Positions 8,542 through 32,841 of a DNA stretch of 35,451 bases are shown here, piece after piece; the first letter of the stretch is position 1, and the number at the start of each line of letters is the position of its first letter. Made by a program: the position numbers and the translations under genes. Source of the DNA: an uncultured Myxococcales bacterium (lineage in GTDB: Bacteria; Myxococcota_A; Bradymonadia; UBA4248); the NCBI GenBank assembly GCA_946415045.1, contig CAMKRB010000004.1:1-35451 (forward strand), written 5' to 3'. The notes below the pieces were generated by a model. That model worked only from the letters and a program-made list of their open reading frames with translations, was not told the origin of the DNA and ran no database searches.

Positions 8542-8913
8542 TTATTTGGGTCTCTTGGCACCGTATTTCGAACGACCAGCACGACGTGCGCTCACGCCCA
8601 TCGAATCCAGCGTTCCACGGATGATGTGATAACGAACACCAGGTAAGTCCTTCACACGGCCACCACGAATCAATACCACGCTATGCTCCTGAAGATTGTG
8701 ACCTTCACCAGGAATGTAGCTCGATACTTCCATCCCGCTCGTCAAACGAACACGGGCTACTTTTCTCAATGCCGAATTCGGCTTTTTCGGCGTCGTTGTG
8801 CTCACGCGCACGCAAACACCACGGCGCTGCGGCGATCCCTTCAATGCCGGCGAATTCGTCTTCGACGTCTTCCGCTCACGGCCACTTCTTACCAGCTGAT
8901 TTATTGTGGGCAT
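8542..8913 (-). CDS. rpsL: 30S ribosomal protein S12 (uS12)
   Basis: A 123-aa decoding-centre protein, first gene of the cluster. Blocks [28 protein letters not shown] and [13 protein letters not shown] are canonical. Both lysines that commonly mutate to give streptomycin resistance (in TPKKPN and RVKDLPG) are wild type. A GAGGAG site precedes the ATG. The transcript starts from the consensus promoter at 8984-9012. Confidence 0.98.
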
Positions 8914-8983
8914 CTTTTCTCCTCTTCATCTTATGCCGCTTGAACCCTTAAACAATTTTTTGGGCTCAAAATAAAACCACAAA

Positions 8984-9012
8984 ATTATAAATACACACAC
9001 CGCCGTTGTCAA
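8984..9012 (-). promoter_or_regulatory. consensus sigma-70 promoter of the str/S10 cluster
   Basis: On the minus strand TTGACA (9012-9007) is followed by exactly 17 bases and then TATAAT (8989-8984). Both hexamers match consensus perfectly. The predicted start lies about 60 bases upstream of rpsL, leaving a short leader before the GAGGAG site. Confidence 0.92.
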
Positions 9013-9510
9013 GATTTCTCAACGACTCTGTGTCTCATTTGGCTCTCCCCCGCCAAATGCCTATGTTTTTCCCGCTTATTCGGCATACACACGCCAAAAA
9101 GCGGCGGCACTTTTACCACCATTCTTTTTTTTATTCAACTTTTTTTCGGATTTGATCGCATCCACTTTATTTTGATGATTTGCCCACGTTGTGGCGCGCC
9201 AGATTTTATGGGTCACGCTCGCATGGGCGACCACACGGGGTGCCCCTACTCGCTATATCGCACCACTATTCACTATTCACTCTCCACTCCTCACTCTCAT
9301 CAGGGGGGATTCCCCCCACGCGTCTATGTGCTCGCCTGCGGCTGCGCGCATACGACGCGCCCCCCTGTGCGGGGCTCTGCCCCGCAACGCCCCGATCTCT
9401 GGCACACTTTATGCCCTGCGCTTTTAACGCGATGCCTGCCTTCCTTAATTATTGCCCCGCATCGCCAAATTCACTAATATTCATCCAAATGTGCCTGGAG
9501 GTGCACTGTG
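9013..9510. other. intergenic region with GC-rich hairpins and a short dispersed repeat
   Basis: There is no credible gene in this 500-base stretch between two divergent genes. It contains one arm of a 27-base dispersed repeat (9183-9209), short ATTCACT tandem units near 9268-9281, a GGGGGG-ATT-CCCCCC hairpin (9303-9317) and a perfect GCGGGGC-TCT-GCCCCGC hairpin (9369-9385). Open frames here have repeat-like composition and no family features. Confidence 0.7.
9452..9480 (+). promoter_or_regulatory. candidate promoter for the PEGA/AgmX operon
   Basis: TTGCCC (9452-9457), a 17-base spacer and TAATAT (9475-9480). Each hexamer matches consensus at four of six positions. It sits about 30 bases upstream of the first start codon, which would give a very short leader holding only the GGAGG site. 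Confidence 0.45.
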
Positions 9511-10110
9511 ATGAAACGCTTATTTCTGCTCTGTTACATAGGCTTGTTTGCCACTTGCCCGGTTCTCGCGAGCGCCGATCCCATAAAAGTCGAATCGCCT
9601 TCTCTCAAAAGAATCAAGGTAAATCCCGACCGCCCCATGGGTCGGCTGTTCATTCGCACCAACTTCAGCTCGCACAGAATTATCGTTGATGGTGCCGAAT
9701 ATCCTGCTTACCTCGACAATACCGGCATCGAAATCACCTCCAACGAATTGCATACCGTCACCGTTTCCAAAGGCGAAATCGAAAAGACATACAAATTCAG
9801 CGTCAATCCCAAAGAAGCCATCGTGCTCTATGTGGATTTGGGCGGAGACAAAAAAAACACTCAGCCGGCCAAGAGTAACCAAAAAGAGGAAGCCGTCACC
9901 GGATTTCTCAACATCACCGCCGAATCTGAGGCGCAGATTTATATCGATGGTAAGCTGATTTCGTCCAAAACACCGCTCAGCAAACACGAAGTCTCCAGCG
10001 GATCACACACCGTCCGTGTCTATTTCTTCGACACCCGGAAATTCTCCAAATCCCGCGAGGTCTACGTTGGCAAAGGCGTCACCATGAGCCTGAATTTCAC
10101 CAAAGAATAG
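9511..10110 (+). CDS. exported protein with two PEGA-like domains
   Basis: A 199-aa secreted protein with a Sec signal peptide (MKRLFLLCYIGLFATCPVLA, likely cleaved near residue 22). Two beta-sandwich repeats of the PEGA type follow, at about 44-110 (IIVDGAEYPAYLDNTGIEI, then HTVTV) and 131-196 (IYIDGKLISSKTPL, then SGSHTVRVYF). PEGA domains are usually surface or peptidoglycan-associated modules; no enzyme motif is visible. The second domain closely resembles the C-terminal domain of the next gene (TRKFSKS in both). I prefer the ATG at 9511, nine bases after GGAGG; a GTG at 9508 is in the same frame. It is first of three tightly spaced genes. Confidence 0.8.
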   Translation: MKRLFLLCYIGLFATCPVLASADPIKVESPSLKRIKVNPDRPMGRLFIRTNFSSHRIIVDGAEYPAYLDNTGIEITSNELHTVTVSKGEIEKTYKFSVNPKEAIVLYVDLGGDKKNTQPAKSNQKEEAVTGFLNITAESEAQIYIDGKLISSKTPLSKHEVSSGSHTVRVYFFDTRKFSKSREVYVGKGVTMSLNFTKE

Positions 10111-10119
10111 GATCGCCAC

Positions 10120-11274
10120 ATGCGAAATTACATTCTCTTTCCCGCATTTGCTGCAGCCTTCATCTGTTTAACGGCGATCGGCTGCACATCAACCGACACC
10201 GACAGCGGCAGCATTTGCTTTTGTGATAACAATCTGAAAGCGAAATACGAGACAACGTCTGTTCAAAGCGCCGAATCCGATCGTCAGCGTCTGGATAATG
10301 ACACCATGAAAGCTGAAATCGCGTACCTGGATGCCCAAATCGTACTGGCCAAAAAGGATTACACGCTGGCAGTTTCCGAATTCACCGACAAAGCGGATGA
10401 AATCATCGAAAAGGCTGTAAATATCGACACCGACTCCCCTAAGCAGGTCATCAATGTACGCAGTGAACTTTTATTTACCGACGACAGCGATCTGCAAAAC
10501 CCGATTTCGCAATCCATTGCGCGCCAACAGCGATCACTCGCCCCATGCTTTGAAAAGCACCACATCGATATCCCTGCTGCGGGAGTGAAAACCTCGGTAC
10601 ATATCGGGTTCAAAAATGGCAAGGCGAACCGCGCACTTATCACATCATCCGATGTCGATGATCTGGGGTGGCAGAACTGCATCACCACGGGCATCATGTC
10701 ATGGTTTTTTCCTACGACAGCCAACCAGATCACCATATCGAACGAATTCAGATTCACAGCCGATAAATCCGTCGGCAAATCCGATGTCCGCATCAGCGCA
10801 AATGTCCTCGAAGGCACCAATAAACAGGACGCGCCCAGCAGCGACAAGGCACAGGCAGCCCCGAATGCGAACAATGTATCGCCTGATAAAAGCGGATCTG
10901 CACCGGTTCCTCCCCTGGATCCGAACAACGCTGGTATGCTGACCATTCAATCCGATGCATTGGATCGAACGAGTTATTACATCGACGGAAAACAAGTCGC
11001 GGACAAATCAACCGTTGAGAATTACCTGATTTCGAGTGGAACACACACTGCCCGCGCCTATTTCACCCAAACGCGCAAGTTTTCCAAATCCCTCGAATTC
11101 GTGATTGAAAAAGGCTTCCACACGACACTCTCCTTCAACGTCGACGAAGCCCCCAAAATCCTGAGCAAAACCAAAATCCCCAAAAAGTCCGGCGATAAGA
11201 AACCGAGTGCATCCAAAACTTCCAAACGCAGCACAAAACGACCTGTCGACTCATCTATTGATTTTCCATTCTAG
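10120..11274 (+). CDS. lipoprotein with AgmX/PglI-like and PEGA-like domains
   Basis: A 384-aa protein with a lipoprotein signal (AIGC, Cys22) and a nearby CFC motif. A helical, coiled-coil-like stretch lies at about 40-100. A domain at about 130-215 fits the AgmX/PglI C-terminal family of myxobacteria: two Cys (143 in LAPCFEK and 187 in WQNCITTGIMSWFFP) flank a strand pattern TSVHIGFKNGKANRALI. After a Pro/Ser/Ala-rich linker there is a PEGA-like domain at 272-341, then a Lys/Ser-rich tail. It starts nine bases after the first gene. An envelope-anchored structural or adaptor role is inference; no catalytic motif is seen. Confidence 0.75.
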   Translation: MRNYILFPAFAAAFICLTAIGCTSTDTDSGSICFCDNNLKAKYETTSVQSAESDRQRLDNDTMKAEIAYLDAQIVLAKKDYTLAVSEFTDKADEIIEKAVNIDTDSPKQVINVRSELLFTDDSDLQNPISQSIARQQRSLAPCFEKHHIDIPAAGVKTSVHIGFKNGKANRALITSSDVDDLGWQNCITTGIMSWFFPTTANQITISNEFRFTADKSVGKSDVRISANVLEGTNKQDAPSSDKAQAAPNANNVSPDKSGSAPVPPLDPNNAGMLTIQSDALDRTSYYIDGKQVADKSTVENYLISSGTHTARAYFTQTRKFSKSLEFVIEKGFHTTLSFNVDEAPKILSKTKIPKKSGDKKPSASKTSKRSTKRPVDSSIDFPF

Positions 11275-11289
11275 TGCAGGAGCAGAACG

Positions 11290-12126
11290 ATGAATAAACT
11301 TTTGATCCCAATCGCTGCAATGGTGTGCCTGTTGCCCGGATGCGGCTACAGCCCCTGCGACTGTGCGGAATACAACAAGCTTGAAGAATTCAAGGCGAAT
11401 CAGAACAACGACATCGACAACTATTCTGCGCTGTTACAGGAAGCGCAGGAGCTGAGAATTCAGCTGGATAACCGCAAATCCGTGCTTGAACGTGTGCCCT
11501 CAGTCAAAACGCGCATCCGTGTGATGAACACTGAAAATGCCAAAGCGAGTGAATCCAGCGAGATTACAAGTGGCCACAGCTATGATCAGATCACATCTGC
11601 CCTGGCATCTGCGCAGAATCTCATCGAAGCGAAATGCGCCCACCGAGGTTATGTCACCATCGAATTTCCTGTTGAAATCAACAAAAAAGTCGCGTGGTTC
11701 AAAGACCTGGACGGCACTTTAACCGGGGACCAGTCCGACTGCATCCACGAGGTTTTGCATGATATGTCGTTTGATACCAGCGAGGTGAAGCTGATCGTGC
11801 GCCATACATTTTTTGTGCGCAATCCCAAAGGCACGGAGAAAGCAAAATCGCAACCGACCAAACTTCCTTCCCCAATTCAGGTACTACAAGCACTTGAGCT
11901 GGTCCAGGGATCTGTAACAGGACATTGCGGCCAGCCACAGCCAGGTAAAGTCACGCTGAATTTCAAGATTGACAGTTCCGGCGTCCCCTACGATATCACC
12001 GTTACCAAAGACGAAACGAATGACCCGGAAATCAGCGAATGCATCATCGATAATCTCAAACATGCGGCACTGCCGGCGTTTCCTGAATTTGACCAACCGC
12101 CCATCAAATACACATTTCACAACTGA
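11290..12126 (+). CDS. lipoprotein with two AgmX/PglI-like domains
   Basis: A 278-aa protein with a clear lipobox (LLPGC, Cys18), then a CDC motif and a coiled-coil stretch (about 42-65). Two Cys-paired domains follow. The first (about 72-177) has Cys116 and Cys151; the second (about 196-276) has Cys213 and Cys251 and the pattern GKVTLNFKIDSSGVPYDITV. These resemble the AgmX/PglI C-terminal domain of the preceding gene, whose lipobox, CxC and coiled-coil head is also shared. The two genes are therefore paralogous in their N-terminal halves. It begins 15 bases after its neighbour, with a GGAG-type site. Confidence 0.72.
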   Translation: MNKLLIPIAAMVCLLPGCGYSPCDCAEYNKLEEFKANQNNDIDNYSALLQEAQELRIQLDNRKSVLERVPSVKTRIRVMNTENAKASESSEITSGHSYDQITSALASAQNLIEAKCAHRGYVTIEFPVEINKKVAWFKDLDGTLTGDQSDCIHEVLHDMSFDTSEVKLIVRHTFFVRNPKGTEKAKSQPTKLPSPIQVLQALELVQGSVTGHCGQPQPGKVTLNFKIDSSGVPYDITVTKDETNDPEISECIIDNLKHAALPAFPEFDQPPIKYTFHN

Positions 12127-12163
12127 TTGGCGGGGATAAGCGATTATCGCGGCACATAAACAA

Positions 12164-12196
12164 AACGCCGCGTATGGCAGCAGCCATAGCGGCGTT
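12164..12196 (+). repeat. TAT/ATA bulged palindrome, copy 1
   Basis: Outer stem AACGCCGC / GCGGCGTT, unpaired G (12172), inner stem TATGGC / GCCATA, loop AGCA. It is paired with copy 2 in the convergent space between the lipoprotein operon and pyrG and may also act as a bidirectional transcription barrier. Confidence 0.85.
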
Positions 12197-12201
12197 CGGC
12201 A

Positions 12202-12229
12202 GGGCGTATCGGCCAACGGCCGATAGCCC
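12202..12229 (+). repeat. TAT/ATA bulged palindrome, copy 2
   Basis: Outer stem GGGC / GCCC, unpaired G (12206), inner stem TATCGGCC / GGCCGATA, loop AAC. Same architecture and orientation as copy 1, with different stem sequences. Confidence 0.85.
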
Positions 12230-12249
12230 GCCCGCATCAAAAACGCAAA

Positions 12250-13863
12250 CTAACCGCGATTGTTGAGCGCAGCCTCGATGAAACTTGCAAAGAGCGGGTG
12301 CGCATCAGTCGGTTTGGACTGATATTCGGGATGGAACTGCGTGCAGATGAACCAAGGATGGCTGGGCAGTTCGAAGATTTCGACCAGCGAATTGTCGGGA
12401 GAAGTGCCCGAGAAAACGACGCCAACGAGTTCGAAATCCTGGCGCAGGTCGTTGTTGACCTCATAGCGGTGGCGGTGACGTTCGTGGATTTCGCGCTTGC
12501 CATAGATGCTGCGCACGTGTGAATTTTCGGCCAGAACGCAAGGATAGGCTCCCAGGCGCATGGTGCCGCCTTTGTCGGTGATTTCGGCCTGCGAGGCCAT
12601 CAGATGAATGACTGGATGGGGGGAATCGGGCACGAATTCTGACGAATTGGCATCAGTCCATCCGCAGACATGGCGTGCATATTCGACCAATGCCATCTGC
12701 ATGCCCAGGCAAATACCGAAGAATGGGACGTTATTTTTGCGGGCATATTCGATGGCGCGGATTTTACCTTCTGTACCGCGCACGCCGAAACCTCCGGGCA
12801 CCAGAATGCCATCGGCACTGCTGAGGACATCGGCGACCTCTTCATCCGTCAGCGACTCGAGTTCTTCGCTGTCGATGTAGCTGAGGCGCACTTTGGCGTT
12901 GTTGGCGTATCCGCCGTGATTGAGCGCTTCGATGAGGCTTTTGTACGATTCGTGCAGTTTGACGTATTTGCCGACCAGAGCGATGGAGACCTCCTTTTCG
13001 GGGTGACGGATGATTTCGACAATGCGTTCCCATGCCGAGATATCGGGCTCGCGCGACCAGATGTTGAGCAGTTCACAGATGCGGCCGTCGAGATTCTGCG
13101 AATGGAAATACGTCGGCATCATGTAGATGCTTTCGACATCGCGGGCACCAAAGATGCAGTCCTCGCGGACATTGCAGAAAAGCGCGAGTTTTTTGCGAAT
13201 GTCCATGGGCAAATCGCGTTCGCCGCGGCAGACCAGGATGTCGGGGAGAATACCGATTTCCATGAGGGCAGCGACGCTGTGCTGTGTCGGCTTTGTTTTG
13301 AGTTCATCGGCAGTTTTGATGTAAGGCACGAGCGTGACGTGAATGTTGATCACATCGCCGCGTTCGTGTTTTGCCCGGAACTGGCGGATGGCCTCCAGAA
13401 ATGGCAGAGATTCGATATCGCCGACCGTACCGCCGACCTCGATGATCGCCACATCGCAGTCCTGCGAGGCTTCGCGGAATACGAGCTGAATTTCGTCGGT
13501 TATGTGAGGTATGACCTGGACAGTTCCGCCCAGATAATCCCCGCGCCGTTCCTTGGTTATCACGCGATAATAGATGCGGCCTGAGGTGCAGTTGTTCACC
13601 TGACGCGTGTGCGTATGCGTAAATCGCTCGTAATGCCCCAAATCCATATCCGTCTCGGCGCCATCTTCGGTCACATAGACCTCGCCATGCTGCAGCGGGT
13701 TCATCGTGCCGGGATCGACATTGATGTAGGGATCAAGCTTGAGAAAGTTCACGCGAAGCCCTCGCGCTTCGAGCAGCGAACCAATCGCTGCTGCTGAAAT
13801 GCCTTTGCCAAGCGAACTGATCACGCCGCCGGTAACAAAAATGTATTTTGTCGAATGTGCCAT
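12250..13863 (-). CDS. pyrG: CTP synthase (glutamine hydrolysing)
   Basis: A 537-aa enzyme that makes CTP from UTP, ATP and glutamine, the last step of pyrimidine nucleotide synthesis. The N-terminal synthetase domain shows [16 protein letters not shown] and [14 protein letters not shown]. The C-terminal class-I glutamine amidotransferase domain has the nucleophile Cys in FFGICLGMQ and the His-x-Glu pair in [10 protein letters not shown]. Length is normal. It is a single gene on the minus strand, facing the lipoprotein operon and divergent from the secreted protein at 14026. Confidence 0.98.
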
Positions 13864-17021: not shown

Positions 17022-18266
17022 CTAGTCGGTCGAAGGTTCAGGTTCGCATGCGGAATTGTCGGCTTTGCAAACAGAAGGACAAACATCACCGGCCGTCCAT
17101 CTGCCATTCTCGCACTCGTACATGTAGGAAGCGCTGTCTTCAGAATTCACAGCACATTTGGACTCGCCGGCGGCGCACTCAGCGCAATCGACCATCACGG
17201 AAGCGTCCTCAACGGTAACGCATTTCAGGCCGGAATCGCAGGTGCGTTCAGGTTCCCAGCTCGTGCCATCGGCGGAACATTTGACGATAGCGGTCTCGGA
17301 ATCACATTTCTTTTCGTCCGGTGTGCAGATGACGGAAGAAGTCGCGCACTCACCGGTCGAAGCGTCGCAATCGGCTTCGCATTTATCAGTTTCGGTATAT
17401 TTATATTCTGTACCGTCGCAAGTTGCGCTGTACTTATTGCCATCAGCTTCGATACATTTCTTCGAGCCGCTCTCAGAGCAGGCATTTTCATCAATCGGGC
17501 CGCTGGCTTTGCAGCTCTTGCCATCGGAATCGCAGCCATCGTCGCATTTATCGTCTTCGCCATACTGGAATTCGGAACCATCGCAGGTTGCCGAATAAAC
17601 AACGCCGCTGACTTCGATGCATTTTTTATCGTTCTTGGCGACGCCGCCTTCGCAAGTTTCACCACCGGGATTGGATTTGGGTTCGCAATCGGTGCCGGCG
17701 GCATTGCATTTGCCGGATTCGCAGGTCTCATCGACACGATATTTATTGTCGGCGCAGGTGACTTTGGAAGCCTTGCCACCGTTGAGACCGCTCTTGATGA
17801 TGCAAGTCGTAGCGGTACCTGTGCAGGCCAGGGGATCGGTCACAGGAGTCGGCGAAGTGGACTGATGTCTTTCGGGAGCCGTACCCTTGTCGGCAGGCAG
17901 GCAATAGTAATTGCTGGTGCCGGGAATCCACTCGACGCAGGCCGCACCTTCGGGGCATGTTTCCTTGCATTTTTTACCAGCGGGGCAACCGCAGAAATTA
18001 CCCGAACAGGTTTTGGAATCGGGGATGCAGCGATAGGTGCAAAAAGCATCACTGCTTTCATAACGGCCACAAATGAGGCTGTCGCAATCGAATACGTAAT
18101 CAGCCGCGCATGTGGCGGTTTTCTGCTCGCCCTGTGGCGAACAGGCCTGTTTATAGGCGGTCGTATCAGGAATTGAGCAGGGGCCGTATTCTTCGGGATT
18201 GCAAGCATTCAAGCAAGCGGCAAAACCGACAGCCAAACCTAAACCAGCAAGTAAATGTTTATTCAT
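17022..18266 (-). CDS. Cys-rich lipoprotein with repeated disulfide modules
   Basis: A 414-aa exported protein of unknown function. The start is the ATG at 18266 (MNKHLLAGLG), eight bases after GGAG; an upstream in-frame GTG overlaps that site and is unlikely. A lipoprotein-type signal ends in LNAC. The mature part is almost entirely Cys-rich modules with a Ser/Thr/Pro linker near residue 135-145. The clearest repeat pairs are KKCIEVSGVVYSATCDGSEF and KKCIEADGNKYSATCDGTEY, each followed by a DKC-x(3)-C block. It resembles the Cys-rich lipoproteins at 25762 and 29134 in style rather than by clear homology. It is a single gene with its own promoter and terminator. A surface or adhesive role is inference. 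Confidence 0.78.
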   Translation of the reverse strand: MNKHLLAGLGLAVGFAACLNACNPEEYGPCSIPDTTAYKQACSPQGEQKTATCAADYVFDCDSLICGRYESSDAFCTYRCIPDSKTCSGNFCGCPAGKKCKETCPEGAACVEWIPGTSNYYCLPADKGTAPERHQSTSPTPVTDPLACTGTATTCIIKSGLNGGKASKVTCADNKYRVDETCESGKCNAAGTDCEPKSNPGGETCEGGVAKNDKKCIEVSGVVYSATCDGSEFQYGEDDKCDDGCDSDGKSCKASGPIDENACSESGSKKCIEADGNKYSATCDGTEYKYTETDKCEADCDASTGECATSSVICTPDEKKCDSETAIVKCSADGTSWEPERTCDSGLKCVTVEDASVMVDCAECAAGESKCAVNSEDSASYMYECENGRWTAGDVCPSVCKADNSACEPEPSTD

Positions 18267-18318
18267 TCTGAACACTCCAACGGCGATTAATACAACAAAA
18301 CACCGACGTACCTGTTAC

Positions 18319-19539: not shown

Positions 19540-21474
19540 TCACGAACGATAGTTTTTGAGCGATTTTCGGGCACGGCGCATCAGCGAAAGGATGTGATCG
19601 TTGACAACAAACCGCTCGGACCTGCGATAATCACGGCGATCGCTGCGGAAACAGGCCGATATGTACTCGCGGGCAAACTGGCAGACATCGCGCAGTCCCC
19701 TGGGGGGAGCGTCGCGCCACCACTGTTCAAGTGACATATCGATGTGGAAGCGGCGGCAGTCGGATTCGACCAAAGACCACGCAAATTTCCAGGTTTCATG
19801 CGGGTGAGCAAGCCGACGGCGCATATAGCCGACCAGCACATACAGCACAAAACCGGCAACAGCGGCAAACATCGCCCACCACAGCAGCACCAGGCCATAG
19901 CGAGCCATCCAGTTGTAGAAATCGCGCGTTTTGTAAGTCGAAAACCAGTCGTCGATGCGCACCAGCAGGTTGATTTCAACCGGCGCAGGTCCGGATGGCG
20001 TGGGATCAAAGACCGTCCATCCCCGGGTTTCGTCCAGATAAACCTCGACCCAGCTGTGGGCATGCGCAGAACGCACATAATTCTGGCCTTCGCGGAATTC
20101 CGACGACACAAATCCGGTCACGTTGCGCACCGGCACATTCAGGCGGGCGAGCAATACGGCCATCGTCGTCGAAAAGACCTCGCAATGGCCAAATTTCTGG
20201 TTGAACAAAAAGTCGATGACAACCGGTTCATCGCGCTGGGGCCGTTCCAGGCTGTAACGATAGTTCGACTGCAAATAGGATTGAATGCGGCGGGCGATTT
20301 CTTCGCGAGACGTGGCATTTCCTGCGATTTGATGCGCAAACGCCGCCAGACGATCGCGCTGCGCTTTTTCGCGCCATTCTGCAGGCCAGATATCGCGGCT
20401 GTCGAAGCGCAATTCTTCGGCAGCAGTCTCCTGATCGATCCAGAAATCGAAGGCAGTGAGCGGTTGTCCGCGCCGCCATCCCCAGCGGTACCAGACGCCT
20501 GCAGCATCGTGATAAAACCGGATATTTGACGGTGCAGTCACATCATCAGGCAATTCCACAGCCGTGGTGCCATACAGCGTCGGCAGCTTGAAATCATGCC
20601 AGTCGTGCGCGAATTCGACGCGATAGGCGTCGGCATTTTGCGTGTGTGACGAACGGGTTTGATTTGAATTTCCGCTGTTTCCCGTTCGCCATCTCACGCC
20701 GTCAAAGATCGTCTGCACCTCGACGCGCCAGTAGTAATTGCCGGAAAGCTCGGGCACATCGGCCGTAAAAACGAGCGTCGGATCGACATTGATTTTGCCC
20801 GTGCGATCGAGCGCCACATCGGGAAACTGCCCCGTCGTGCGTCCGCCACCGGGAACCGGCGGAATCGTCTCGACGCCCCAGCGCGGCACCACCAGAAACA
20901 ACAGACTGCCAATTGCCAGCGACAGCAATAGAATCGTGATGCTTTTAAACCAGAATCTGCCGGAAAAAACGCGCGTCTGACGCTTTGCCGGCAGCGAGGC
21001 GTTTTCTGTCGGAATCGCGACGCTTCCGGTTTTGGGAACTTCCAGAGCCTGCATGCACAAAAATGACGTCCAGACAAGAAAATAGGCGAGCATGAACGCC
21101 ATAAAGGCAGTTGCAGTGAGGGAATAGGCAACGCAGACGAGAGGCAACAGCGAGATGAGGCCAACCTGCACGCGATTTGCAAGACGATCGTGATACAGCG
21201 ATCGCCAGGCCAGAATGGTCCAGAGCATATCCAGACAGACCTGCAGAATCAGGGCGCGAAATCCGGGCCACTGCATCACGTCGATCGATACGAGCACAAA
21301 AAACAGCAGCACAACCGCCGCGATCGCGATGCGGCGATGCGAAATGTTGCGGTAATTCAGCCATGATCCGATCAGCACAAATGCGCTCACCAGCGCGAAC
21401 GACAGCCAGTGACAAATCCCGCATGCCAGCGCCGCTCCCATCCCCAGTTCGATGAGCACATAGAGCATCCACAT
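19540..21474 (-). CDS. TgpA-like membrane transglutaminase
   Basis: A 644-aa inner-membrane protein of the DUF3488/TgpA type. About six to seven N-terminal membrane segments (residues 1-200) lead to a periplasmic domain with a transglutaminase-like core, then one more membrane segment (about 515-540) and a basic cytoplasmic tail. The catalytic triad is visible: Cys431 (FGHCEVFSTTM), His473 (HAHSWVEVYL) and Asp490 (VFDPTPSG). In other bacteria such proteins are often next to MoxR ATPase and DUF58 genes; here it starts one base after mreD and is clearly in the mre operon. A link to envelope assembly or wall maintenance is inference from that context. Confidence 0.88.
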   Translation of the reverse strand: MWMLYVLIELGMGAALACGICHWLSFALVSAFVLIGSWLNYRNISHRRIAIAAVVLLFFVLVSIDVMQWPGFRALILQVCLDMLWTILAWRSLYHDRLANRVQVGLISLLPLVCVAYSLTATAFMAFMLAYFLVWTSFLCMQALEVPKTGSVAIPTENASLPAKRQTRVFSGRFWFKSITILLLSLAIGSLLFLVVPRWGVETIPPVPGGGRTTGQFPDVALDRTGKINVDPTLVFTADVPELSGNYYWRVEVQTIFDGVRWRTGNSGNSNQTRSSHTQNADAYRVEFAHDWHDFKLPTLYGTTAVELPDDVTAPSNIRFYHDAAGVWYRWGWRRGQPLTAFDFWIDQETAAEELRFDSRDIWPAEWREKAQRDRLAAFAHQIAGNATSREEIARRIQSYLQSNYRYSLERPQRDEPVVIDFLFNQKFGHCEVFSTTMAVLLARLNVPVRNVTGFVSSEFREGQNYVRSAHAHSWVEVYLDETRGWTVFDPTPSGPAPVEINLLVRIDDWFSTYKTRDFYNWMARYGLVLLWWAMFAAVAGFVLYVLVGYMRRRLAHPHETWKFAWSLVESDCRRFHIDMSLEQWWRDAPPRGLRDVCQFAREYISACFRSDRRDYRRSERFVVNDHILSLMRRARKSLKNYRS

Positions 21475-21475
21475 A

Positions 21476-21985
21476 TCACGTCAGACCCGTTTTGCGATGT
21501 GAGCTGAACAAACGGTCGAGCAGCTGAACGACGAACATGACAAGCGGCAGGAAAAGCGCCGACAAAATCGCATCCAGCCAGAATCTGCGCAAAAACAGCA
21601 TCAGATACACGGTCTGACGGTAAACCACGCCATAACCTGCAGCCAGAAGCAATTCAAAAAAGGCGGACGCAATCGCGGCAAATATCATCATGGCGACCAC
21701 CCGCTCGGATCGAAAGCGCAGCATAATCGCCCGAAATATGATGAATACAAGAGAAAACACGAGTGCGTAAAGCCCGGTGGGTCCCGAAGCCCACAAGTCA
21801 CAGGCAAATCCGAGCACGACCATCGACACCATCGAGGCGATTGAGGGCATGACCAGACCGCAGCAAAGCACCATGCCGATGACCCCAAACTGGCACATGG
21901 CATCGATGCCGAATGACGCATTAAAATTGCTCTGGGCAATCATCAGCAGAAGTGCGCACAGCGCATTGATAATCACGATGCGCAT
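21476..21985 (-). CDS. mreD: rod shape-determining protein MreD
   Basis: A 169-aa membrane protein with about five hydrophobic helices. MreD is poorly conserved in sequence, so the call rests on size, topology, the motif region FACDLWASGPTGLYALVF, and position directly after mreC, whose stop overlaps this start (TGATG, 21983-21987). It is part of the elongasome membrane complex that guides lateral wall synthesis. Confidence 0.85.
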   Translation of the reverse strand: MRIVIINALCALLLMIAQSNFNASFGIDAMCQFGVIGMVLCCGLVMPSIASMVSMVVLGFACDLWASGPTGLYALVFSLVFIIFRAIMLRFRSERVVAMMIFAAIASAFFELLLAAGYGVVYRQTVYLMLFLRRFWLDAILSALFLPLVMFVVQLLDRLFSSHRKTGLT

Positions 21986-22839
21986 CAGCGTCTCCGCTGG
22001 GCATTTTCGATGGTTCCGGTGATGATGTAGACTTCCTCAAGCCGCGAGAAATCGACGATGGGTTCAACGGTCACTTTCTGATACAGCCCAAACGATTTGG
22101 TATCGATCGAGGAAATTCTTCCGATGGGCAATTCTTTGGGAAATGTTCCCGCGCGACCGCTGGTGACGACGAGTTCGCCCTGTTCGACTTCATCGCGGCG
22201 CAGCAGATAAGAGATTTTGGCCTCATAAGCGCGGTCGTCCCCGGTGCCGGTCAGAATGCCGCGAGAACGGTTGATTTGCGTCATCACATCGATATTCGAG
22301 CGCGGATCGACGGTGAGCATCACGTCGCAGAACTTCCCGTCGACGCGTTCGATGCGTCCAACCAGACCTTCTGCAGAAACGACGGGCATTTCGGGTTCGA
22401 TGGATTCCGATTCGGATTCGATGCGCAGCCGCAGCACGCGAAAATAGGGCGACATATCGGCAGCGATCACCCGGGCCGGTTCCAGTTGATAAATCGGCCG
22501 CTGCTGCTTGAATCCCACCAGTTTCGTCAGCCGCGCGTTCTGCTGCAAGATGCCCTGAAGTCCGATATTTTCCTCGCGCAGCCTTGCATTTTCCTTGCGC
22601 AGCGATTCATTGTCGCTCTCGGTATGCACCAGATTGATATAGCTGTCCCAAAAACCGGCGCTGTTGCCGACGACGAAATCGTTGTAACTCTGGATGTGTC
22701 CGATTGCAGAATAAACCGGACGCGCCATCATCGCAGGCTCGCGGCGTTTGCTCCCCGAAACCACAAAGACGATAAGCGGCAGCGCCACCACCACCACAAG
22801 TGCCGCAATCGTCTGATATCTCTTGATGACGGCTTTCAT
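21985..22839 (-). CDS. mreC: rod shape-determining protein MreC
   Basis: A 284-aa bitopic protein: one N-terminal membrane helix (about 10-29), a coiled coil (about 70-105, ESLRKENARLREEN), then the periplasmic double beta-barrel domain with PVVSAEGLVGRIERV and LVVTSGRAGTFPKELPIGRI. MreC links MreB filaments to the wall synthases. It starts three bases after the mreB stop. Confidence 0.95.
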   Translation of the reverse strand: MKAVIKRYQTIAALVVVVALPLIVFVVSGSKRREPAMMARPVYSAIGHIQSYNDFVVGNSAGFWDSYINLVHTESDNESLRKENARLREENIGLQGILQQNARLTKLVGFKQQRPIYQLEPARVIAADMSPYFRVLRLRIESESESIEPEMPVVSAEGLVGRIERVDGKFCDVMLTVDPRSNIDVMTQINRSRGILTGTGDDRAYEAKISYLLRRDEVEQGELVVTSGRAGTFPKELPIGRISSIDTKSFGLYQKVTVEPIVDFSRLEEVYIITGTIENAQRRR

Positions 22840-22842
22840 GAA

Positions 22843-23889
<1,047 letters not shown>

Positions 23890-28791: not shown

Positions 28792-29133
28792 TCGCCGCAT
28801 AACCCGGCAGGCAGCAAGCTTATCGGGTTGGGAGGCCGTATTGCCGCAGGCAATAGGCCGACCGCGAGCTGTAGGGGCGGCCATTTGGCCGCCCCAAAGC
28901 GAGCCACACACCACATATCAAAGACCCTGTCAGATGCTGATTTATTCTTGCCAAAGCAGATGATTTATGGTCGAATGCCAGCCTTTCGCCGGAGTAATGA
29001 TGTGCTGATATTCAAGCGCACCAGTACGCATTGCGATTTATGCAAAGTGATACCGAACGGATGGTTTTTGAAAAAGTGCCGTCAGTTCAAGATGGGAACA
29101 ATCCGGAATTCATTGAATCAGGGAGTCATCCAG
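28792..29133. other. intergenic region before the protease gene
   Basis: It contains palindrome copy 9 and a perfect GGGGCGGCCA-TT-TGGCCGCCCC hairpin (28875-28896). The rest has no recognised gene or good promoter. An open frame from 28828 continues into the protease, but its first 102 codons cover these repeats and lack a signal peptide, so I treat them as non-coding. Confidence 0.7.
28834..28859 (+). repeat. TAT/ATA bulged palindrome, copy 9
   Basis: Outer stem GGCC / GGCC, unpaired G at 28838, inner TATTGCC / GGCAATA, loop GCA. Confidence 0.82.
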
Positions 29134-32100
29134 ATGAAAAAAGAGCTTTTGGTTTCAGCTATTTTGTGCGTTTTATGTGCAGCATGCAACGATACGCAAA
29201 CGCCGCAAAAAGCAAACAAACTGACCGCATTGCAGGAGCAGAGCATTCTGTACGGGACGCCGGCGACCGACCAGCCCTATACCGTGTCGTTGTTTAATGC
29301 GGACGTCAACGATCCGCTCTACCGTAAAGCATGCGATCCGGAACTCGTCAACGAATGCAAAAATGCATACGGCTCGAACTGGACATGCGTGGAGAATGGC
29401 GACGGTCCGTTTTGTGCCGAACTGTGTACGGCAGTCGATTCGACCCAATCAACCTGCGTGCAAAGCGGCGATGACTCTATTCTGGCCAGAAATTCTTGCG
29501 TCAACTGGATAGACAGTACAAACATCTGGATGCTGGATCATTCCTATGAGCAAGGCGCATACGATCTTTTGCTGTGCAGAAATCAGTGCAATGCCGACGA
29601 AACGGACTGCGATTCGCAGGGCGCGAGCAAATACCTGCCATGTTCAAGCGATTACATTTCGCTGTGTCAGGATTACGGTTATGTTACGTGTGTCCAAAGC
29701 GCCACTTCGGCCAACTGTGTGGATTCGTGTTCCAGAGCTGGCCAGACGCAAACCGAGTGCTTTAACACGTCGTATGGCCCAACCGTATATACCGAAGTAT
29801 GCACCGATGTCGAAGGTTCATTGTATTACGTCACGACAGATGAAAAAGATTGCGTGAACGCATGCAATTCTGCGGGTACAGCGTGCGATTCTGCGGGAAC
29901 GCGCGTCAACCGTATGCTTAAGGAAACGGTTGCGGGCAATTCCTATTGCAGCGGTACGCTCATCCATCCGCAATGGGTTTTAACCGCCGCACACTGCGTG
30001 GTGAGCGATGATATCGACAACAATCTGCTCAGGATTGGCGTTGGCAACAATGAAAACGAGCTGCTGCCATTCGAAATTGCGGGTGTCGATGAGATTTATC
30101 CGCACACGGGTTATGGAGAATCGGATGGCGACGATATTGCCCTTATCAAGCTGAAATCTCCAATGGATTCGCGCATTGCAGAGCCCGTATTTCCGCTTCC
30201 CAAATGGCTGGCGTTTACGTCACGGGATTTGCCGGCCATGATGGAAAGCAGCGGTTTCGGATTCAACGAGACTGGCGGAAGCGGCGTCAAAAATACCATC
30301 TCGCTCCCCACAAAAGCCTATTGCGGCATCTTTAATTCTTCCGATTCAAGCAGTGGCTGTTATGTCGGAACACTCCATTATGAGGGCTGCCATCCGGAAC
30401 CCATGAGATGCAGTTATTATGGCTACGCCAATGAAACAGTATCCGTCACCATTCCATACAAGACGATTTATGCTGAGATTACAGAGGGCGGTCAGTGCCA
30501 GGGCGATTCAGGCGGCCCGACCTTCTATACAGTTGGCGGAAAACGTTACGTCGTCGGCGTTACAAGCAACGGCGATGCGCAGTGCCGCGGGTACAATATC
30601 GCCACCTCGGTGCAGGATTATTACGACTGGATCATCGGCATCGCTCCCGAAGTTGCCTCGCAATATAAGGAAATCTGCGGCAACGGACTGGATGATGATG
30701 GCAACGGCTATACCGATGATGCCGATCCCGCCTGCCTGAACTGCGGCAATGGCGTGCTGAATTCCGGCGAAATGTGCGACTCCACCAAATTCGCAGACAA
30801 CAAAACCACATGCGTGCAGTGGGATGCCACGCAGTATTCAGCGGGCAATGTTTCCTGCAACGCCGATTGCACCATCAACTACAGCAACTGCATCCAAGCC
30901 AATTATTGCGGCAATGGCATCGTAGACGCAGACGAATCGTGCGACCTGACGAAGTTTGCCGGAAACAAGACTTCGTGCGTCCAGTGGGATTCCAATTATG
31001 CTTCGGGCAATGTCTCGTGCAACGCAGACTGCACCATCAATTATGACAATTGCGTCGACAGCACACCGGTTTGCGGCGATGGCATCGTGAATGGCGACGA
31101 GGTATGCGACGGCTCAAAGTTCCACGATAACCGAAGCGCATGCAAAACCCTGTATCCCGACCTGTATTCCTCAGGTCAGATGGGCTGCACGGATACATGC
31201 ACCTACGATGCATCGGCTTGCGTCAAACTTTGCGGTGATGGCACAGTCAATACGTCCAAAGGCGAGGTCTGCGATCACAGCGACAGCGGCGACAAATTCC
31301 TGACGAGTTCCAATACCTGCGCAAAAGTTGTGGGGCCCGGCTCAACCGGAACCTTAAAATGCGCCGAAAACTGCCTGACGATCGATACCTCGGAATGCAC
31401 TATCCCACCCGAATGCGGCAATGGCGTTATCGAAACCGGTGAAGAATGCGACAGTTCGGCATTCCCCATCGATTCCGTATCATGCGCCGATTACAATTCG
31501 AGCTACATCAGGGGCGAAGTCACATGCAACGCGAATTGCACGATTAACTACAATCTGTGCGAGTTAGCACCGGAACCGCCTTCGTGCGGCGACGGAAAAC
31601 TCGACGATGGTGAACTGTGCGACGGCAACAAGTTCCCAGATAATACCAAAGCATGCAACAAGCTGTTCCCCGATCTCTACGACAAAGGCACCGTTAAATG
31701 CACCGATACATGCGAATATGATACAACGGCATGTGTCCCGCTGTGCGGCAACGGAACCGTTAATATAAGCAAAGGTGAAGCCTGTGACCACAGCGACAGC
31801 GGCGACAAATTCCCCACAAGCGCCAACTCCTGCGCCAAAGTCGTAGGCACGGGTTCTACCGGCACGCTCGCCTGCTCAACCGATTGCAAATCCATCATCA
31901 CCTCGGGCTGCACTGCAGAAACGCTTTGCGGCAATGGCAAACTGGATGGCGATGAACAATGCGACAAATCATTATATGCCGACAACAAAACCTCGTGCGC
32001 CAATTGGGACAGCAAATATACAAGCGGAAACGTCAGCTGCAACAGCGATTGCACCGTCAATTTCGCAGCTTGCAGTGAAGCACCGGTCGAACAATGCGGC

Positions 32101-32841
32101 AATGGCATTCTGGACGCCGGTGAGCCATGCGATCTCAACGCTTTCGCCGACAACAAAACCGCTTGCGCAGATTGGGATGGCAAATATACAAGCGGAAACG
32201 TCTCATGCAACCCCAACTGCACGGTCGATTACAGCGCTTGCAGTGAAGCGCCGTTTGAACTTTGCGGCAACGGCACTCTGGACGACAATGAACCATGCGA
32301 TCAGAACGCTTTCGCCGATAACAAAACCGCTTGCACCGATTGGGACAGCAAATATACAAGCGGAAACGTCAGCTGCAACAACGATTGCACTGTCAATTTC
32401 GCCGCTTGCAGCGAAACGCCGGTCGAACTTTGCGGCAACGGCATTCTGGACGCCGGTGAACCATGCGATTTGAACGATTTCGCCGATAACAAAACCGCCT
32501 GCGCAGATTGGGACGGCAAATATACAAGCGGAAACGTGAGTTGTGCCCTCAACTGCACGGTCGATTACAGCGCTTGCACAGAAAGTGCCGCCCCCGTCGA
32601 AATCTGCGACAATAACCTCGACGACGACGGCAACAACCTGATCGATTGCTACGATCCCGCGTGCAGCAACGACGCCGCATGCGCCAACAACCCCCTGGCC
32701 AATCCGAATGCACCTGTCGCCAAGAGTGTAGCTGACGACTGTTCATCCACACCGCTCTCCTCAAGCCACTCACCATGGCCATTGATTCTGGGCGTGCTTG
32801 GAATCGGTGCCTTCGCAAGACGTCGCCGCGAAAATTCATAA
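29134..32841 (+). CDS. lipoprotein trypsin-like protease with 11 Cys-rich modules and MYXO-CTERM-like tail
   Basis: A 1235-aa protein. I start it at the ATG at 29134 (MKKELLVSAILCVLCAAC), with GGGAG nine bases upstream and a lipoprotein-type signal (Cys18). ILYGTPATDQPYTVSL (38-53) resembles the IVGG start of a mature trypsin. A Cys-rich segment (about 60-255) then interrupts the fold before CSGTLIHPQWVLTAAHC. The triad is His287, Asp334 (DDIALIKL) and Ser459 (CQGDSGGP). A DDDGNGYTDDADPAC motif follows, then eleven modules from 537 to about 1149. These have the form CGNG-x-LD-x-GE-x-CD, about 30 residues, then GNVSCNxDCT-x-N/DY/F-x(2)C. A second Asp motif (DNNLDDDGNNLIDC) precedes the tail: Cys1203, a membrane segment (PWPLILGVLGIGAF) and RRRR. 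This tail fits MYXO-CTERM sorting signals processed by myxosortases. Extracellular proteolysis is well supported; the substrate is unknown. Confidence 0.9.
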   Translation: MKKELLVSAILCVLCAACNDTQTPQKANKLTALQEQSILYGTPATDQPYTVSLFNADVNDPLYRKACDPELVNECKNAYGSNWTCVENGDGPFCAELCTAVDSTQSTCVQSGDDSILARNSCVNWIDSTNIWMLDHSYEQGAYDLLLCRNQCNADETDCDSQGASKYLPCSSDYISLCQDYGYVTCVQSATSANCVDSCSRAGQTQTECFNTSYGPTVYTEVCTDVEGSLYYVTTDEKDCVNACNSAGTACDSAGTRVNRMLKETVAGNSYCSGTLIHPQWVLTAAHCVVSDDIDNNLLRIGVGNNENELLPFEIAGVDEIYPHTGYGESDGDDIALIKLKSPMDSRIAEPVFPLPKWLAFTSRDLPAMMESSGFGFNETGGSGVKNTISLPTKAYCGIFNSSDSSSGCYVGTLHYEGCHPEPMRCSYYGYANETVSVTIPYKTIYAEITEGGQCQGDSGGPTFYTVGGKRYVVGVTSNGDAQCRGYNIATSVQDYYDWIIGIAPEVASQYKEICGNGLDDDGNGYTDDADPACLNCGNGVLNSGEMCDSTKFADNKTTCVQWDATQYSAGNVSCNADCTINYSNCIQANYCGNGIVDADESCDLTKFAGNKTSCVQWDSNYASGNVSCNADCTINYDNCVDSTPVCGDGIVNGDEVCDGSKFHDNRSACKTLYPDLYSSGQMGCTDTCTYDASACVKLCGDGTVNTSKGEVCDHSDSGDKFLTSSNTCAKVVGPGSTGTLKCAENCLTIDTSECTIPPECGNGVIETGEECDSSAFPIDSVSCADYNSSYIRGEVTCNANCTINYNLCELAPEPPSCGDGKLDDGELCDGNKFPDNTKACNKLFPDLYDKGTVKCTDTCEYDTTACVPLCGNGTVNISKGEACDHSDSGDKFPTSANSCAKVVGTGSTGTLACSTDCKSIITSGCTAETLCGNGKLDGDEQCDKSLYADNKTSCANWDSKYTSGNVSCNSDCTVNFAACSEAPVEQCGNGILDAGEPCDLNAFADNKTACADWDGKYTSGNVSCNPNCTVDYSACSEAPFELCGNGTLDDNEPCDQNAFADNKTACTDWDSKYTSGNVSCNNDCTVNFAACSETPVELCGNGILDAGEPCDLNDFADNKTACADWDGKYTSGNVSCALNCTVDYSACTESAAPVEICDNNLDDDGNNLIDCYDPACSNDAACANNPLANPNAPVAKSVADDCSSTPLSSSHSPWPLILGVLGIGAFARRRRENS
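31927..32598 (+). repeat. four tandem 168-bp repeats inside the protease gene
   Basis: Near-identical units begin at 31927, 32095, 32263 and 32431, each 56 codons and each one Cys-rich module. Sequence similarity at the DNA level (for example TTTCGCCGA-AACAAAACC, then AATATACAAGCGGAAACGT in every unit) is much higher than among the first seven modules, which points to recent expansion. Confidence 0.9.

Follow-up and report, generated by a model that had tools for sequence, protein, structure and literature searches.

Three consecutive genes at positions 9511–12126 of the window (the whole stretch of DNA analyzed, 35,451 bases) were compared with related genomes, and the comparison indicates that this trio does not form a conserved operon across the sampled genomes. 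The conserved part of the locus is gene 1, which encodes a class-wide protein with two PEGA-type domains, rather than the trio. Judged by sequence, genes 2 and 3, which encode two predicted lipoproteins, are lineage-specific and appear to have been added to the cell envelope locally, as opposed to forming a new and conserved machine. The first-pass annotation had described a stand-alone envelope operon and had made its case depend on the conservation of the trio, which was found in no sampled relative. Gene 1 itself may be the most interesting item at the locus.

Layout of the locus and gene 1

The window is derived from a metagenome-assembled genome (504 contigs, 87% complete). Myxococcales bacterium UBA4248 and genomes recovered from samples of the ruminant gut are among its relatives. 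As first annotated, the trio consists of three open reading frames on the forward strand: gene 1 (9511–10110, 199 amino acids), gene 2 (10120–11274, 384 amino acids), and gene 3 (11290–12126, 278 amino acids). They are located between rpsL (8542–8913) and pyrG (12250–13863), both on the reverse strand; the neighbor names used here (rpsL, rpsG, fusA, and pyrG) are presumptive and were assigned from the protein sequences. The intergenic gaps are 9 bases between genes 1 and 2 and 15 bases between genes 2 and 3, purine-rich stretches that resemble ribosome-binding sites are found upstream of the trio genes, and all three genes score positive in frame for synonymous codon choice, as do most of the neighbors, with a codon use that fits the contig. 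The three genes may be co-transcribed. A sigma-70-type promoter was not found on the forward strand upstream of the trio. Where gene 3 and pyrG run toward each other, they are separated by a hairpin repeat (12164–12196) that is terminator-like on the reverse strand and has related copies across the genome. A perfect sigma-70 consensus promoter (12/12, spacer 17) is located at 8984–9012 on the reverse strand, upstream of rpsL-rpsG-fusA.

Gene 1 encodes a predicted exported protein with a signal peptide (9511–9576, ending in VLASA) that was read by eye from the sequence. The presence of PEGA domains was confirmed by a match to Pfam family PF08308 in two stretches (33.4 bits, E = 4.2e-8) that lies above the cut-off (gathering score 20.8). 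The first PEGA-like domain (amino acids 43–111, 9637–9843) is the second Pfam stretch and is formed by beta strands in the structural model, and the second PEGA domain (amino acids 130–197, 9898–10101) is assigned to PF08308 and modeled with a pLDDT of about 90 in amino acids 131–170. A pairwise comparison of the two domains with each other was matched or exceeded by 347 out of 1,000 shuffles. The AlphaFold2 model, based on nine orthologues, displays two beta domains that are joined by a weak linker (mean pLDDT 73, pTM 0.37). A fold search with this model returned a generic beta sandwich, with a chain of the hydrazine dehydrogenase complex as the top match (6hif_Y, Z = 9.3 over 70 residues at 1.9 Å) and all other rows below Z = 8; no function was drawn from this search. 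Gene 1 is probably an ancient soluble periplasmic protein made of two PEGA-type beta sandwiches. PEGA is presented as a domain of cell-surface proteins in an earlier study (PMC2447325). The suggestion that the PEGA parts contact the cell wall found no support in the literature searched, where the terms “PEGA domain” and “myxococc” did not occur together in any paper.

Domain composition of genes 2 and 3

Gene 2 encodes a predicted lipoprotein with a lipobox (AIGC, 10174–10185), a two-Cys tail domain (10492–10761), a linker, a PEGA domain (10927–11145) and a basic C-terminal tail (11155–11271, pI 10.6). Gene 3 encodes a second predicted lipoprotein with a lipobox (LPGC, 11332–11343) and two two-Cys domains (11578–11823 and 11887–12123). 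Lipoboxes and helices of both proteins were read by eye from the sequence, and an envelope location of the products, as originally proposed, remains the probable one. The first-pass annotation had also assigned a common lipobox-CxC-coiled-coil head to genes 2 and 3. The layout is indeed alike, with the CxC starting 11 (gene 2) or 5 (gene 3) residues downstream of the lipobox Cys, but homology of the two heads was rejected (local score 27, reached by 475 out of 1,000 shuffles).

The three two-Cys domains in genes 2 and 3 were recovered as AgmX/PglI-like, in agreement with the original assignment. Amino acids 128–212 of gene 2 (31.2 bits, E = 1.8e-7) and amino acids 219–276 of gene 3 (32.2 bits, E = 8.9e-8) match the AgmX/PglI C-terminal family (myxo_SS_tail, NF033768) with significant E-values but fall below its curated cut-off of 40 bits, so that both proteins are relatives of the family and not members by its own rule. 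The first two-Cys domain of gene 3 (amino acids 99–173) was detected with a profile of 18 other two-Cys domains, which gave 15.1–18.8 bits compared with at most 7.4 bits in the shuffled controls (2,000 shuffles, of which 1,914 received a score); the same profile also recovers the domain of gene 2 and the second domain of gene 3. The two domains of gene 3 resemble each other (9 out of 1,000 shuffles as high), whereas the kinship between them and the domain of gene 2 is visible by profile only (521 and 501 out of 1,000 shuffles as high in pairwise comparisons). The two Cys align across all three domains.

Several matches link the two-Cys domains to the C-terminal domains of TonB and TolA. Gene 3 displays weak matches to the NCBIfam family tonB_Cterm (TIGR01352, E = 0.043, under the cut-off) and to Pfam TonB_C in the region where NF033768 matches, and a protein with three such tails in a relative of the same genus (G002) passes the tonB_Cterm cut-off (31.4 vs. 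27.1). Three out of six weak sequence matches in the PDB are TonB. The model of the second two-Cys domain of gene 3 is poor (mean pLDDT 53), and in a Foldseek search with this model six of the eight best rows were TolA or TonB C-terminal domains (E = 0.18–0.66). These data are consistent with, and do not prove, a resemblance between the NF033768 relatives and TonB C-terminal domains. TolA domain III carries a disulfide, and the aligned Cys pairs of genes 2 and 3 may likewise form disulfides.

The claim that the second PEGA domain of gene 1 recurs at the end of gene 2 held up well: the pairwise score of 141 was reached in none of 1,000 shuffles, although the copy in gene 2 has no direct match in Pfam. 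In a tree of 22 PEGA domains, the gene 2 copy falls within the family-level clade of gene 1 (94/95), where it has a long branch of 1.12 changes per column; only one of the 19 inner branches of this tree is starred, and the clade as a whole is the sole grouping used here. Furthermore, the gene 2 copy shares 40–43% identity with each of the gene 1 copies in the six genomes of the genus and is roughly equidistant from them. This equidistance does not support the idea that gene 2 recently acquired its PEGA by duplication from gene 1 in the same genome. The position in the clade, the long branch, and the equidistance together indicate that the gene 2 domain originated as a gene-1-type PEGA and is by now highly diverged rather than freshly copied, which is a link between gene 2 and gene 1. 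A gene-1-type PEGA, 60% identical to that of gene 1, is also found at the end of a lipoprotein in G001 (L049 8641–10068), suggesting that this PEGA moves. The G001 gene is located upstream of what we take to be a TRAP-type transporter.

Genes 2 and 3 can be placed next to several known proteins. Like proteins with the AgmX/PglI C-terminal domain, such as GltG and GltJ of the Myxococcus gliding machinery, they have a two-Cys TonB_C-like domain, but they differ by carrying a predicted lipid anchor in place of a transmembrane helix, by lacking an FHA domain and by scoring below the curated cut-off of the family. Gene 1 resembles PEGA envelope proteins in general, and gene 2 departs from them in that its gene-1-type PEGA is fused to a predicted-lipidated two-Cys domain. 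The G001 lipoprotein resembles gene 2 in having a lipobox (by eye) and a PEGA tail of the same type, but no AgmX tail was found in it and it is encoded at another locus. The exported G002 protein (L057 6730–7737), in which three two-Cys tails are arranged in tandem, shares with gene 3 a signal peptide, a helical stretch and repeated two-Cys domains, but it has no lipobox by eye and is encoded at a different locus.

Distribution and rearrangement

Gene 1 was matched in 55 out of 57 genomes of the class (E ≤ 0.001) and in all nine genomes of the order, its own included; the eight order relatives contain gene 1 without genes 2 and 3. In six of the eight (G001, G002, G003, G004, G005, and G007) gene 1 immediately follows pyrG and shares its strand, with genes 2 and 3 missing there, and pyrG was not seen in the gene 1 stretches fetched from G006 and G008. 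Beyond the order, 12 loci of the class (from 12 out of 48 such genomes) were compared with 28 window proteins as queries and only gene 1 was matched, and the linkage to pyrG is thus seen only within the family. In five of the 12 loci (L128, L131, L134, L137, and L138) the gene 1 relative adjoins a gene for a conserved protein, presumably an AAA ATPase.

Full-length gene 2 is present in its own genome only (1 out of 95 genomes), the remaining matches covering either the PEGA or the tail, and the same is true for full-length gene 3 in three overlapping genome sets (1/95, 1/57, and 1/377, the last at E ≤ 1e-8; the 57 are contained within the 95 and the 377 share members with both). A loose search of eight family genomes with residues 1–215 of gene 2 returned almost only matches to the tail domain, and the best match apart from gene 2 itself had E = 3e-4. 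A conserved envelope machine made of three parts, the suggestion of the first-pass annotation, would have to have escaped detection through rapid evolution of genes 2 and 3 or because the relatives carrying it are unsequenced; this is very unlikely. The long branch of the gene 2 PEGA demonstrates that fast divergence does occur here, and the family comprises only eight genomes in the collection. However, a tblastn search with gene 3 and with gene 2 lacking its PEGA against 18 stretches from relatives (totalling 241,776 bases, some contigs being included twice) gave a best E of 0.23, while gene 1 is 59–62% identical within the genus. The AgmX/PglI tail (5–27 matches per genome, 13 in the genome studied here) and PEGA (12–77 matches per genome) are each present in all 57 class genomes, and genes 2 and 3 are, by all appearances, built from the stock modules of the class.

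The window carries gene 1 in an orientation that is inverted relative to pyrG, the only such case among the seven genomes that show both genes together. Variable gene order in the vicinity of gene 1 was also seen in G002, G005, and G006. In these three genomes gene 1 adjoins a homologue of a 417-amino-acid protein that is encoded at 17022–18275 (reverse strand) of the window and has no matches in Pfam or NCBIfam. Between gene 1 and rpsL of G001, tandem repeats were seen as a repeating translation (L050 9079–9456).

Dispersed repeats flank the trio on both sides. Upstream, positions 9180–9490 form a mosaic of such repeats with 43 matches in the genome including self, and the copies have diverged (best 94% over 81 bases). 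Downstream, a hairpin-type repeat at 12157–12250 has 42 matches including self, mostly at 74–88% identity with short pieces up to 97%. The repeats represent a plausible route for the inversion of gene 1. A misjoined or misoriented trio segment in this fragmented assembly is extremely unlikely: the repeats on both sides and the strand of gene 1, opposite to pyrG in this genome alone, would fit such an artefact, but the divergence of the other repeat copies makes a misjoin less likely, an inverted repeat pair of at least 14 bases was not found within 8900–12300, and the codon use matches the contig.

The same repeats bear on whether genes 2 and 3 belong with gene 1 at all. Rearrangement at the repeats could have placed two unrelated orphan lipoproteins without a common function beside gene 1, an origin that is compatible with the 43 and 42 repeat copies, with the variable gene order in the three relatives and with the abundance of the AgmX tail, but that sits poorly with gaps of so few bases and with the gene-1-type PEGA in gene 2; it is on the unlikely side.

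Possible roles of the lipoproteins

The explanation that we tentatively prefer, at somewhat less than even confidence, is that genes 2 and 3 encode lineage-specific, outer-membrane-tethered periplasmic adaptors that were added to an ancient PEGA protein. In this lineage gene 1 has been inverted away from pyrG and is followed by two lineage-specific lipoproteins. Both would be held in the outer membrane by a lipid anchor, with a helical stem reaching into the periplasm. A Gly or Thr after the lipidated Cys specifies the outer membrane in E. coli, a rule that is unproven for this phylum. The heads, similar to TonB_C or TolA domain III and stapled by disulfides, would dock partner proteins by beta-strand addition, and the PEGA and basic tail of gene 2 would recruit it to whatever partner or surface gene 1 associates with, where a complex might form. 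Against this explanation, genes 2 and 3 may be unrelated to gene 1, since adjacency in a single genome proves little. The poor model of the two-Cys domain with its weak Foldseek matches, the NF033768 scores below the cut-off, and the failure to find a forward-strand sigma-70-type promoter upstream also count against it.

GltG and GltJ are transmembrane TolA/TonB-like proteins with TonBC motifs according to PMC5349195, and GltG is described as contacting the motor protein AglR (PMC5349195 and PMC3169522). Unlike energized transducers of the TonB, TolA, and GltG type, genes 2 and 3 have no inner-membrane helix; by eye, both look like lipoproteins whose sequences contain no additional hydrophobic helix, and coupling to a motor is therefore unlikely. 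The two proteins would act as passive adaptors, in contrast to the motor-driven GltG, GltJ, TonB, and TolA. Among 15 distinct window proteins scanned (a subset of the genes in the window) there was no ExbBD/TolQR-like match, and, apart from the shared tail domain, no match among the window proteins scanned pointed to the G1/G2/M1 gene set of the Glt machinery. The adaptor explanation would, if true, mean that TonB/TolA-type heads serve as passive lipid-anchored adaptors and would provide an example, at the level of a lineage, of mobile modules being assembled into envelope proteins. A more far-reaching version is decidedly unlikely: the locus would encode a new passive scaffold from the outer membrane to the periplasm, in which a gene-1-type PEGA is joined to a lipid-anchored TolA/TonB-like head and motorless, disulfide-stapled knobs pair with the ancient PEGA protein.

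Elsewhere in the window, mreB, mreC, and mreD adjoin a gene that encodes a TgpA-type transglutaminase membrane protein (19540–23877, reverse strand). Positions 28828–32841 (forward strand) encode a 1,337-amino-acid protein with acidic double-disulfide repeats (below the cut-off) and a MYXO-CTERM sorting signal that scores barely above the cut-off.
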